Positions 48,655-55,963 of a stretch of 64,000 nt of DNA are shown here, piece by piece. Below the pieces are notes generated by a model that saw only the letters and a program-made list of their open reading frames with translations, made no database searches and was not told where the DNA came from. Numbering within the stretch: the stretch's first letter is position 1; every line of letters begins with the position of its first letter. This DNA is from a bacterium (lineage in GTDB: Bacteria > Myxococcota_A > Bradymonadia > UBA7976 > UBA1532): NCBI GenBank assembly GCA_030427205.1, contig JAUHXC010000001.1, positions 1,054,001 through 1,118,000 on the forward strand, given 5' to 3'. The position numbers and the translations under genes were made by a program.

Positions 48655-50682
48655 ATGGATACGTGGCCGCGGGGTTCGAGCGCGCGGTGGCCGACCGTGA
48701 GGTGGCTGCTGGTGTTGATGGTCTTCGGCGCGAGCGCCGCCTGCATCCCGGCGGGCGGCGGCGGCGGCGGCGGTGATGACGACGACGGCGGCGAGGCCGA
48801 CGGGCGGATCGACCCCGACGACGGTATCCCGCCGGACATGTTCGTCGACCCCGACGACGGGGTGCCGCCGCCCGACATGTTCATCGACCCCGATGACGGT
48901 ATTCCTCCCGCGGATATGGCGCCCGACCCCGACCCCGACGACGGGGTGCCGCCGCCCGACATGGCGCCGCTGCCCGACGGCGGCGACTGCGCGCCGGAGA
49001 CCTGCAACGGCGCGGACGACGACTGCGACGGCACAATCGACGAGGGCTTCGACGGCCTCGGCGAGCCGTGCTTCGTCGGCGTGGGGCTGTGCGAGGCCGA
49101 CGGGGTGGTGATCTGCACCCCCGACGGCAGCGGCACGGTCTGCGACGCCGCCTCGCCGGGCGCGGTGCCCGAGACGTGCAACGGGCTCGACGACGACTGC
49201 GACGGCGACGTCGACGAGGCGCTCGACCCCGCGCCGTGCGAGAGCGGCCTGGGGCGCTGCGCCGAGGGGCTCGAGCAGTGCGTCGACGGCGAGGCGCTGT
49301 GCATCCCGCGGCTCGATCCGATCGACGAGGTCTGCAGCGGCGAGGACGACGACTGCGACGGCCGGGTCGACGAGGGTCAGGGCGGCGAGCTGTGCGTCAG
49401 CGGCGAGCCGGGGCTGTGCGCCGCGGGGGTCGATGTCTGCGTCGACGGCATGCTGTTCTGCCAGCCCGGCGAGCCGGCGGCCGAGCGCTGCAACGAGGAG
49501 GACGACGACTGCGACGGCGACATCGACGAGCGGGGCGTCTGCGACGCGTGTGCCGGGGTGAACTGCCCGCCGGGTCTCGCCTGCGTCGACGGCGAGTGCC
49601 TGCCCGACGACCCCTGCGCCGGGGTGAACTGCCCGCCGGGCACGGTCTGCGACCGCGGCGAGTGCGTGCCGATCGATCCGGGCGAGGCGACGCCCATCGC
49701 CGCCGAGGGCCGCAGCATCGAGCTGGCCGGCGCGCTGACCGCCGACGATCCGCTGTGGGATCGCGCGGCGGCCAACTGCGCCGCCGGCAGCGGCCGCCAG
49801 GCCCATTTCGACGCGCTGCGCATCGTCAACGCCTCGGGCATCCCGCGCACGATCACGGTCACCGGGCGCTGGGGCGGCGGCGTCGACGGGTTCCTGCACG
49901 TCTTCGACGCCGGGTTCGAACCGGGGTCGCTCGAAGGCTGCCTGCGCGGCGACGACGACTTCAACGGCACGGGCGCCAGTCAGGTGGCCGAGCTGCCCAT
50001 CGGGCCGGCGCAGGAGCAGGTGATCGTCGTCTCGACGTTCAGCGCCGGGCGCACCATGCCCGACTACACCGTCGAGGTGCAGACGCTGGGCGGCGCGGTG
50101 CCCGTCGAGGTCTGCGACGACCGCCTCGACAACGACGGCAACGGGCTGGCCGACTGCCAGGATCCCGCGTGTATCGACGATCCGGCCTGCGACGCGGACG
50201 ATGGGCTCATCCCGGGCGTGCAGCAGGACGTCGCCCTGGCGGCGGTCGAGGCCCGCGGCTGGCGCGTCTGCCACAGCAGCCTGTACAGCAGCAGAGGTGA
50301 ATCGGTCGACGCGCTGCTCGACGGCTGCGCCGGCGAGCAGCTCATGCTGGCCTGCCGGCCCGTGGGTGCCGCGAACCTGACCCTGGCCGCCGAGGGGCTG
50401 CGGGCCGACGTGACGTTCGATGTGGGCCGCGGCGCGAACATCAGCCACAACGCCAACGAGGTGGAGTGGTACCTCTCACCGACGCGCTCGTGGGGCTTCG
50501 CGCCGGGCGGCGCGGCGGTCAACCTCGGCTCGTGTGACTTCGGCGGCGACCAGCCCGAGCTGCGCATGTGCATGCACCTCGATCCGGGCGGCGTGCGGGG
50601 CAATACCGACGATGGCTACCGCTGCGGCGACAACGACCTCAACGCCGACCGCGACTGGGAGCGGTTGGTGCTCGCCCGCTGA
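48655..50682 (+). CDS. MopE-repeat lipoprotein with conserved C-terminal WGFA/WERL domain
   Basis: A 675-aa lipoprotein (lipobox ASAAC, Cys30). A Gly tract and DPDDGVPPPDMF repeats precede four to five MopE-type motifs (ETCNGADDDCDGTIDEG), then two CxGVNCPPG repeats. A PPC-like domain follows at about 340-485. The last 145 residues form a distinct domain with GWRVC, LMLACRP, YLSPTRSWGFAP, LRMCMH, GYRCGDNDLN and WERL, a pattern I have seen at protein C-termini elsewhere but cannot name. MopE motifs bind copper or calcium in relatives. Confidence 0.82.
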   Translation: MDTWPRGSSARWPTVRWLLVLMVFGASAACIPAGGGGGGGDDDDGGEADGRIDPDDGIPPDMFVDPDDGVPPPDMFIDPDDGIPPADMAPDPDPDDGVPPPDMAPLPDGGDCAPETCNGADDDCDGTIDEGFDGLGEPCFVGVGLCEADGVVICTPDGSGTVCDAASPGAVPETCNGLDDDCDGDVDEALDPAPCESGLGRCAEGLEQCVDGEALCIPRLDPIDEVCSGEDDDCDGRVDEGQGGELCVSGEPGLCAAGVDVCVDGMLFCQPGEPAAERCNEEDDDCDGDIDERGVCDACAGVNCPPGLACVDGECLPDDPCAGVNCPPGTVCDRGECVPIDPGEATPIAAEGRSIELAGALTADDPLWDRAAANCAAGSGRQAHFDALRIVNASGIPRTITVTGRWGGGVDGFLHVFDAGFEPGSLEGCLRGDDDFNGTGASQVAELPIGPAQEQVIVVSTFSAGRTMPDYTVEVQTLGGAVPVEVCDDRLDNDGNGLADCQDPACIDDPACDADDGLIPGVQQDVALAAVEARGWRVCHSSLYSSRGESVDALLDGCAGEQLMLACRPVGAANLTLAAEGLRADVTFDVGRGANISHNANEVEWYLSPTRSWGFAPGGAAVNLGSCDFGGDQPELRMCMHLDPGGVRGNTDDGYRCGDNDLNADRDWERLVLAR

Positions 50683-50692
50683 GAGGCATGAC

Positions 50693-51649
50693 ATGACGAC
50701 GAAGTGGCTGGTCATGGCGATGCTCGTCGGCCTGAGCGTCGCCTGCGTCCCCCGGGGTGGTGGCGGCGGCGGCGGGGACGACGACGGCGGCCCGGCGGAC
50801 GGGCGGATCGACCCCGACGACGGGGTCTCGCCGGCAGATATGTTCATCGATCCGGACGATGGCGTGCCGCCGCCGGACATGTTCGTCGACCCGGACGACG
50901 GGGTGCCGCCGCCCGACATGGCGCCCGCGCCGGACGGCGACCGGCCCCGCGACATGGCCCCGCAGCCCGACGGCGCCGAGTGCGACCCCGAGACGTGCAA
51001 CGGCGCGGGCGACGACTGCGACGGCGTGGTCGACGAAGGCCAGGACGTCGCGCCGTGCGTGACCGATACGCCGGGCCGCTGCGCCGATGGCCTCGAGCAG
51101 TGCGTCGGCGGGGCGCCGCTGTGCGTGCCGCGGCTCGACCCGCAGGACGAGCAGTGCAACGACGAGGACGACGACTGCGACGGCGCGGTGGACGAGGGCG
51201 ATGTCTGCGACCCGTGCGCCGGGATCGACTGCGCGCCGGGCGAGCTGTGCAGCGACGGCGTCTGCGGGCTGATCGATCCAGGCTGCGGCGACTACGCCGA
51301 GGTGGCCGATCCGACCCGCAACCTCGCCGCGGGCGAGAACGGCAGCGCCTGCGATCGGGCCGGCGGCGATCTGCCCGTCGGCGAGTGGCTCCGCTTCGTG
51401 CCGCCGGCGGGCGAGCGCATGGCCGAAGAGGCCCCCGAGGACGACATCTGCGGCACCGACGCGCCCGGCTGGCTGATGGGCGGCCACCCGCAGACCGGCG
51501 AAGGCGTCGTCGAGCGCACGGTGTGCTTCAGCTGGCGCGACAACCCCTGCCGCTGGGAGGCGCAGGTCGAGGTGCTCGACTGCGGCGACTTCGTGCTCTA
51601 CCGGGTGCCGCCGGTGCCCATCTGCAACTTGCGCTACTGCGCCGAGTAG
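50693..51649 (+). CDS. MopE-repeat lipoprotein with C-terminal D8C domain
   Basis: A 318-aa lipoprotein (lipobox LSVAC, Cys18) sharing the Gly tract, DPDDGVPPPDMF repeats and MopE motifs of its upstream neighbour, 10 bp away. From about residue 198 the C-terminus differs and carries eight cysteines in the D8C pattern: GEWLRFVPPAGERMAE, ICGTDAPGWLMGGHP, GVVERTVCFSW, NPCRWEAQVEVLDC, VPICNLRYC. It matches the domain of vertebrate uromodulin and GP2 in both cysteine order and intervening residues. In animals such domains are extracellular and disulfide-bonded. Confidence 0.85.
   Translation: MTTKWLVMAMLVGLSVACVPRGGGGGGGDDDGGPADGRIDPDDGVSPADMFIDPDDGVPPPDMFVDPDDGVPPPDMAPAPDGDRPRDMAPQPDGAECDPETCNGAGDDCDGVVDEGQDVAPCVTDTPGRCADGLEQCVGGAPLCVPRLDPQDEQCNDEDDDCDGAVDEGDVCDPCAGIDCAPGELCSDGVCGLIDPGCGDYAEVADPTRNLAAGENGSACDRAGGDLPVGEWLRFVPPAGERMAEEAPEDDICGTDAPGWLMGGHPQTGEGVVERTVCFSWRDNPCRWEAQVEVLDCGDFVLYRVPPVPICNLRYCAE
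51284..51646 (+). other. D8C-like domain coding segment
   Basis: Encodes residues 198-318 of the lipoprotein. Eight Cys codons are spaced as in D8C, with the hallmark WLRF, GWLMGGHP, CRWEAQV and CNLRYC elements. The recognition is by pattern recall, not by search. Confidence 0.72.
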
Positions 51650-51735: not shown

Positions 51736-54294
<2,559 letters not shown>

Positions 54295-54607
54295 GGCAGC
54301 CTCCCCGGCGCCTCCCCGGCGCCCGTCGCCAGTATAGCCCGGCGGCCACGAGGCGATCCCGACGATGCCGCCCTTGCGCCGCGCCCCGGGGCCGCGCATC
54401 ATGCCTGGGCAATGCACATCTACATCCGCCTGCGCTGAACCGCCGCCGACCGGGCCCCACCGCCCGCTCGCGCCGCGTCGTCTTTCGCGCTCTCCATGCC
54501 CGGGGAGCCGCGCGCAGGGGATCGTCTCCGCCCACCGCCGAGCATCCCACGCGGCCCTCCGTATTCGACCCGAACCGCGCCCCGTGCGCACGCCGAGGAG
54601 CTCCCCC
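54295..54607. other. Divergent intergenic region before hflX
   Basis: No gene recognised. It contains the starts of two diverging transcripts, but no convincing promoter boxes are visible. A tiny frame MHIYIRLR (54412-54438) has no ribosome site. Confidence 0.5.
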
Positions 54608-55963
54608 ATGCCGGCCCATCTGCCCCCCCGCCCCGAACGCACCGCCCGCCGGGCGATCCTGTCCGCTGTCCAGACCCCCGAGGTCGACGACGGACGCCTC
54701 GCCCGCTCGCTCGACGAGCTGCGCCGCCTCGCCGAGGGGCTGGGCGTCACGGTGATCGACACCGTCGTGCAGCGCCGCGACACCGACCGCAAGACCCACG
54801 TCTTCGGCCGCGGGCGCCTCGAGGCGCTCAAACGCCGATTCGAGGGGTCCGACCCGACGCAGGAGGGCCCGCCAGGGCCCGCAGACGGCCCGCGGGAGGC
54901 CGATCTGCTGCTGGTGGACAACGAGCTGGCCCCCGGCCAGCAATTCGCCTTGGAGAAGGCCCTGGGCGCCCCGGTGATGGACCGCACCGCGGTCATCCTG
55001 GAGGTCTTCGAGTCCCGCGCGCGGACCCACATCGCCCGCCTCGAGCTGGAGATCGCCCGCCTCGAATACGCCGTGCCGCGCATGCGCGACCTCGACGAGC
55101 CCGACCGCGAAGGCGGGGGGGCGCGCGGTGAGCGGGGGCATACCCAGGCCGAGCTGCGCCGGCAGCAGGCCCGCATCCGCCGGGCGGCGCTGCGCAAACA
55201 GATCGAGGCCGCCCGCGCCGCCGACGACATGGCCCGCGAGCGGCGGCGCGACGTGCCGGTGGCGGCCATCGTGGGCTATACCAACGCCGGCAAGTCGTCG
55301 CTGATGCGCGCGCTGACCGGCGACGGGGTGCTGGTGGCCGACAAGCTCTTCGCCACCCTCGGCTCGACGGTGCGCGCCATCGAGCCCGAGACCGACCCCA
55401 AGACCCTGGTGGTCGACACCGTCGGCTTCATCGAGAACCTGCCGCACCACCTGGTGGCCTCGTTCCGCTCGACCCTCGAAGAGGCCCGCGAGGCCGACCT
55501 GCTGGTCTATGTGGTCGACGCCTCCGACCCGCACCGCGAGAACCAGCTGGCGGTGACGCAGCGCACGGTGGCCGATCTGATCGCCGAGCGGGCCGACGAC
55601 CCCGACGCGCCGCTGCCGCCGTCGCTGCTGGTGTTCAACAAGATCGACCGGCTCGACGCCGACGCGCGGCATGCCCTGAGCGAAGAGTGGCCCGACGCGC
55701 TGCAGCTCTCGGCCTTCGAGCCGGCAGACGTCGCCCGGCTGCGGGCGACCATCGAGCAGCACATGCGGCGCGGTCATCAGCGGGTGTGGCTGCGGGTGCC
55801 GTATTCGGCGGGGCATCTGTTGGGCGAGGTGCACGGCGCGGCGCGGGTCATCGGCGAGACCTACGACGCCGAGGGCACGCTGCTCGAGGTGCAGGTGGGC
55901 CCGGCCGAGCTGGGTCGGCTCGAGAAGCGGGGGGTCAGGCGGGTGGCGGCGCCGGAGGGGTGA
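54608..55963 (+). CDS. hflX: GTPase HflX
   Basis: A ribosome-binding GTPase that splits or rescues stalled ribosomes under stress. The 451-aa protein has an N-terminal HflX domain (THVFGRGRLEAL, VMDRTAVILEVFESRA), a charged linker around residues 160-215, and a G domain: G1 GYTNAGKS, G3 DTVGF, G4 NKID. ENLPHHLVASFRSTLEEA is the family signature. The long upstream in-frame extension has no protein-like sequence, so ATG 54608 is used. Confidence 0.93.
   Translation: MPAHLPPRPERTARRAILSAVQTPEVDDGRLARSLDELRRLAEGLGVTVIDTVVQRRDTDRKTHVFGRGRLEALKRRFEGSDPTQEGPPGPADGPREADLLLVDNELAPGQQFALEKALGAPVMDRTAVILEVFESRARTHIARLELEIARLEYAVPRMRDLDEPDREGGGARGERGHTQAELRRQQARIRRAALRKQIEAARAADDMARERRRDVPVAAIVGYTNAGKSSLMRALTGDGVLVADKLFATLGSTVRAIEPETDPKTLVVDTVGFIENLPHHLVASFRSTLEEAREADLLVYVVDASDPHRENQLAVTQRTVADLIAERADDPDAPLPPSLLVFNKIDRLDADARHALSEEWPDALQLSAFEPADVARLRATIEQHMRRGHQRVWLRVPYSAGHLLGEVHGAARVIGETYDAEGTLLEVQVGPAELGRLEKRGVRRVAAPEG

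Follow-up and report, generated by a model that had tools for sequence, protein, structure and literature searches.

A uromodulin/GP2-type D8C domain without one bonded cysteine pair, at the end of a predicted Cys-rich surface stalk in a myxococcotal bacterium

The window analysed here is a stretch of 64,000 nucleotides from a bacterium of the class Bradymonadia (assembly GCA_030427205.1, contig JAUHXC010000001.1, positions 1,054,001 to 1,118,000), in which a forward-strand gene (50693..51649, +) encodes a 318-residue product that is predicted from its sequence to be a lipoprotein with a Cys-rich stalk and a C-terminal D8C domain, the module known from human uromodulin (UMOD) and GP2. The gene starts with an ATG at 50693, just downstream of a Shine-Dalgarno-like GAGAGG, and homologues share its layout: the order of the parts is signal peptide, possible anchor, Cys-rich stalk and terminal D8C domain. 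The signal peptide (50693..50746, +) ends in a possible lipoprotein box, LSVA-C18, which together with K4 passes a loose lipobox rule of the PS51257 type and fails a stricter pattern due to the serine at residue -3; the lipid anchor claimed in an earlier sequence-only reading of this DNA is thus a prediction, made by the loose rule and not by the strict one. Next comes a linker of low complexity (50747..50977, +), also present in the upstream gene, in which DPDDG is repeated three times, at residues 40, 53 and 66. The stalk (50996..51199, +) carries two MopE-like CNxxxDDCDGxVDEG motifs (residues 102-116 and 155-169), recognised from the sequence and from alignment to the neighbour, and a short Cys-rich segment, CDPCAGIDCAPGELCSDGVC (residues 172-191; 51206..51265, +), similar to one in the neighbour, joins it to the head, a D8C/D10C-type domain of residues 198-318 (51284..51646, +). 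The same earlier reading had the domain fused to MopE metal-binding repeats: the motifs are visible and the stalk aligns at 55% identity across 92 residues with the neighbour's repeats, which Pfam assigns to Cu-binding_MopE, but for the D8C protein itself Pfam reports no MopE at E <= 1, and neither an EGF nor a ZP module, D8C being its only match at that threshold.

The assignment of residues 198-318 to the D8C domain of the uromodulin/GP2 family is confirmed, since profile, single-sequence search, predicted fold and the pattern of cysteine losses described below agree. With the Pfam profile D8C_UMOD (PF23283, curated cut-off 27 bits) the domain scored 53.5 bits (E 2.8e-14) and the whole protein 51.3 bits; a phmmer search against the PDB gave human GP2 at E 1.2e-21 and uromodulin at E 2.6e-17, the next match, an unrelated one, lying at 0.026. 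The same profile found nothing in 14 control genomes at E <= 1e-4, and at E <= 1 the matches in 6 of the 14 all fell below the cut-off. The AlphaFold model of the domain (mean predicted local distance difference test score, pLDDT, of 93) superposes on crystalline GP2 with 1.2 Å over 118 residues, at a sequence identity to human GP2 of 37-39%, and the window domain therefore shares the fold of the human GP2 decoy module D10C (PDB 7p6r, 7p6s and 7p6t). The domain had originally been proposed from eight cysteines in the last 120 or so residues together with uromodulin-like motifs, and both the profile search and the structural overlay suggested at that time bear the proposal out: exactly eight cysteines lie in the last 121 residues (198, 220, 253, 278, 286, 297, 311 and 316), the motifs occur in the order given, the coordinates 51284-51646 are correct, and match, predicted fold and predicted disulfides all resemble those of uromodulin and GP2 save for one of the five disulfides, which lacks both partners.

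The GP2 structural report (PMC8930769) gives the GP2 domain ten cysteines, bonded C1-C8, C2-C9, C3-C6, C4-C10 and C5-C7, and the disulfide pairing of the window domain was transferred from this crystal structure. The window domain keeps C1, C2, C4, C5, C7, C8, C9 and C10 and is without C3 and C6, which leaves four predicted disulfides (198-297, 220-311, 253-316 and 278-286); all eight cysteines align with GP2/UMOD counterparts and the model superposes, the pairing itself being predicted. The canonical D10C has ten cysteines in five disulfides and the window domain eight of the ten, a set that differs from the original eight that gave D8C its name: if ten cysteines are taken as the rule, it stands apart as a bacterial branch of the D8C family with four disulfides. 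A C3 or C6 cysteine occurs in none of 80 bacterial rows (61 from loci and 19 from protein searches, some genes being in both sets), whereas 121 of 131 animal rows have C3, the ten without it being seven Montipora domains and three from one shark protein. This protein, P0012 from Mustelus, has three tandem D8C domains that are without C3-C6 and yet cluster with the bilaterians; in the Montipora domains P0005_1, P0005_3 and P0015_1 the lost pair is replaced by an arginine and an aspartate, which may stand in for the disulfide as a salt bridge. A Nannocystaceae metagenome-assembled genome (MAG) encodes a protein, P0006, with three tandem D8C domains that are also without C2 and C9 and are predicted to adopt a three-disulfide form.

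Across 251 rows, C3 and C6 were lost jointly in 100 cases and singly in 1, C5 and C7 jointly in 2 and singly in 1, and C4 and C10 jointly in 1 and never singly. The tally for C2 and C9 was 10 joint and 12 single losses, 7 of the 12 single cases being rows from Nannocystis or its relatives in which C9 is shifted by one residue. Non-bonded pairs behave otherwise, as with C3 and C9 (12 joint, 105 single). When losses were counted along branch-independent paths of the tree, the partners changed in the same way in five cases, in opposite ways in none and neutrally in one for C2-C9, with corresponding values of 3, 0 and 0 for C3-C6 and 2, 0 and 0 for C5-C7, and these tallies held in nearly all draws inspected. 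In four of the five bonded pairs, then, the partners disappear in concert, and the fifth pair carries no information; this is evidence for a pairing conserved from bacteria to mammals.

Human uromodulin D8C/D10C (PDB 6tqk, 7pfp and 9nu1-3) is likewise similar to the window domain in sequence, in fold and in the residues linked to kidney disease. The sites of uromodulin kidney-disease mutations, in GP2 numbering R74, D86, W92 and R94 according to PMC8930769, are retained in 59, 59, 61 and 61 of 61 bacterial copies respectively, at a mean identity to GP2 over non-cysteine positions of 35%; V163 and Y164 are less well kept (39/61 each), the alternatives being mostly L/M and F. The asparagine that bears the FimH-binding N-glycan of uromodulin, N275 (R165 in GP2), is absent in the phmmer alignment: the window protein has an arginine there, and for this reason the role of uromodulin in presenting a high-mannose glycan to FimH does not carry over. 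From GP2 the window domain differs in the missing C3-C6 pair, the preceding MopE-like stalk, its bacterial host and this arginine in place of UMOD N275; the segment before the head, where the GP2/UMOD decoy module has a disulfide-linked beta-hairpin, gave a poor alignment.

Of 377 genomes drawn evenly from Myxococcota, the phylum of the window, 20 carry D8C above the Pfam cut-off, including members of the window's own family. A pattern scan over one genome per GTDB species gave 42 loci, 38 of them in records with myxobacterial names (Nannocystis, Polyangium, Enhygromyxa, Paraliomyxa and MAGs), the other four being two from one bacterium matched to a genome in the class of the window, one Deltaproteobacteria MAG and one Planctomycetota MAG; the patterns came from eight bacterial copies and thus favour Myxococcota, the phylum from which they were built. 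One of the Nannocystis records is a complete chromosome of 13.2 Mb, and several other isolate-named strains are also carriers. Among 199 Planctomycetota genomes only one contained D8C, the same MAG as in the pattern scan, and this copy (L075), the sole one clearly outside Myxococcota-type records, clusters with myxobacterial copies and would therefore reflect recent transfer or mis-binning. The named organisms among the non-bacterial matches of two protein searches were all animals (corals, anemones, two molluscs and vertebrates), with no non-animal eukaryote, although protein and pattern searches need shared words, so that absence elsewhere is not proof. Our literature searches found no paper on bacterial D8C, and databases already label such bacterial proteins PF23283. 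The suggestion that the domain is more widespread than thought is thereby upheld, D8C recurring across Myxococcota beyond the animals described in the literature consulted.

The architecture of these proteins was surveyed in 61 distinct bacterial frames, for which start codons are not fixed and some of which are cut at the 5' end. D8C ends within 5 residues of the stop codon in 55 of them; the strict rule assigns a lipoprotein-type signal to 37 and the loose rule to 41. At E <= 0.001, Pfam recognises D8C in 59 frames, DUF4215 in 44, MopE in 6, SRCR in 4, Stig1 in 3 and Dicty_CTDC in 1, and the NCBIfam Cys-rich repeat TIGR02232 is present in 43; the recurring layout is therefore a signal, a disulfide-rich stalk and D8C at the far end. 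The domain is internal in six frames (L002, L017, L018, L040, L044 and L049), four of which hold SRCR. SRCR itself has ten matches in the genome of the window (for example C49:36102-36386) and occurs in 18 of the 377 phylum genomes, six of these also having D8C. One Myxococcales frame (L074:1388-4354) has a D8C domain detected by a custom profile, not by Pfam, and otherwise matches the Dictyostelium Dicty_CTDC repeat (E 3.7e-29), and in the Polyangium loci L043, L046, L047 and L065 D8C genes are paired side by side.

Concerning the origin of the domain, comparison with 87 cnidarian rows revealed a best identity of 42-58% for the 61 bacterial rows (median 50.4) and of 37-52% for 42 vertebrate rows (median 48.3), with a median best identity between bacterial and vertebrate rows of 44.2. 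The distance to the corals is thus no greater for the bacterial copies than for the vertebrate ones, a result at odds with separate descent from the root of life. In the trees, bacterial rows lie on the cnidarian side, apart from a well-supported bilaterian clade (99/97), with one bacterial row straying to the bilaterians in one tree. Among the cnidarian rows, P0098 (Oculina) comes nearest to a bacterial copy, with 58.5% identity to L045, and P0099 (Nematostella), P0047, P0053 and P0056 branch beside or among bacterial rows; C3 and C6 are retained in these rows, whose partner domains are PAN (in P0098 and P0099 too) and mostly EGF as well. The sequence-only reading had envisaged an exchange between a bacterium and a eukaryote, and this is the best reading: that the domain passed between animals and Myxococcota, in either direction and in one or more transfers, given its patchy occurrence, its near confinement to one bacterial phylum within the searches made and its coral-level closeness. 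C3-C6 would then have been lost on entry to bacteria or gained on entry to animals. The resemblance in third-position GC content (GC3) between the domain (95.9%), its gene (94.7%) and the neighbour (94.4%) suggests that any transfer is old.

Taken as a whole, the interpretation that we favour, and that we regard as evenly poised between right and wrong, is of a D8C domain without one bonded pair at the tip of a lipid-anchored, Cys-rich surface stalk, likely serving as a recognition or adhesion head and most likely owed to transfer between animals and Myxococcota. The stalk and the N-terminal lipid anchor, the latter predicted by the loose rule only, would hold D8C out at the cell surface, and the head, expected to be a rigid four-disulfide platform, may there contact prey or sister cells by way of one of their proteins or glycans; surface exposure, binding and the existence of a partner are what we infer here. 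The closest working analogue is TraA, the myxobacterial kin-recognition receptor, which in PMC3325183 is described with a PA14 head on Cys-rich repeats and a MYXO-CTERM tag, and hence also as a surface head domain on a Cys-rich stalk. The D8C protein likely works in the manner of TraA, but it is not a member of the TraA family, as the ends are reversed (an N-terminal PA14 head and C-terminal MYXO-CTERM in TraA, a possible N-terminal anchor and C-terminal head here) and as neither PA14 nor MYXO-CTERM was found in the window protein or listed for the 61 bacterial frames at E <= 0.001. For animals, PMC11415648 reports that a zebrafish protein with five D10C domains confers resistance to bacterial infection.

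Several observations weigh against this interpretation. The window protein fails the strict lipobox pattern and 20 of the 61 frames fail even the loose one, some of these because the frames are cut. In a sister genome of the same genus (G057), a 19-kb piece around hflX matches hflX only and no D8C match was found, which means that the genus can do without the gene. C1 and C8 show no coupling, with 0 joint and 3 single losses and tree-path values of 0 same, 0 opposite and 2 neutral, although the single losses may be domain-edge effects. The window domain is itself no closer to corals (44.9% to the best cnidarian row) than to human UMOD (44.8%), and in trees of some 120 columns, which resolve poorly, monophyly is neither shown nor rejected for the bacterial rows (p-AU, from the approximately unbiased test, 0.28) or for the cnidarian ones (p-AU 0.26). 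Finally, placed at the C-terminus, D8C could act as a cap that stabilises the protein and not as a head that binds. Such a folding cap or export aid, keeping the disulfide-rich stalk closed and protease-resistant without binding of its own, would account for the terminal position in 55 of 61 frames and for the very different partners (DUF4215, MopE, Stig1, Dicty_CTDC and collagen), but sits poorly with the internal position of D8C in six frames, four of them with SRCR, whose domains in animals are ligand-binding modules, and with animal proteins in which D8C is repeated and found at many positions; we consider it unlikely.

Less probable still is that D8C is ancient, vertically inherited and lost almost everywhere, without ever having moved between domains of life. 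Its presence in several Myxococcota families as well as in cnidarians, molluscs and vertebrates would fit such descent, but only one Planctomycetota MAG among the 42 loci lies clearly outside Myxococcota-type records (the patterns favouring that phylum) and is also the only carrier among 199 Planctomycetota genomes, no non-animal eukaryote was named in the two protein searches, and bacterial copies match coral copies as closely as vertebrate ones do. Contamination of the assemblies with animal DNA might be suspected from the many carriers that are MAGs, but is refuted for the family: the closed Nannocystis chromosome and isolate-named strains carry D8C, the frames are free of stops throughout and have bacterial-type signals and stalks, the GC3 of the domain is like that of its gene, and none of the 80 bacterial rows has C3 or C6. 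Small disulfide-rich domains can converge, and cysteines and motifs alone might have arisen in this way, but the identity to human GP2 and the superposition over the whole domain refute convergence here as well.

Directly upstream lies a tandem paralogue (48655..50682, +; Pfam MopE 41 bits) that has the leader, linker and MopE stalk of the D8C protein and differs from it in the C-terminal part; it ends 10 bp before the D8C gene, so that the two genes are probably co-transcribed. One stalk design therefore bears different heads, and the paralogue would present another head on the same anchor and stalk. BLASTP aligns its C-terminal domain (50206..50679, +; GWRVCH...LMLACRPVG...), for which no Pfam family was reported, to L002, the other D8C protein in the genome of the window, in which it recurs directly behind D8C; the two heads thus probably belong together. 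The convergent neighbour on the other side (51736-55269, -) carries numerous MopE-like repeats, and a module containing WGPCP occurs in it three times.

From the bacterial branch of D8C one can read off which residues appear indispensable to the fold (R74, D86, W92 and R94) and which disulfide is dispensable. Structural studies gain a form of the domain that does not depend on glycosylation by animal cells, and what the fold does without its glycan becomes open to a tractable test, whilst the surface proteins of Myxococcota gain an animal-type extracellular module beside SRCR. More speculatively, the uromodulin decoy fold may have originated in myxobacterial surface receptors, as their four-disulfide head, and been captured by an early animal, in which it gained C3-C6 and spread among secreted and mucosal defence proteins: we regard this scenario as possible but with the balance clearly tipped against it. 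If it were true, the module with which animals decoy bacteria would itself be of bacterial, predator origin.
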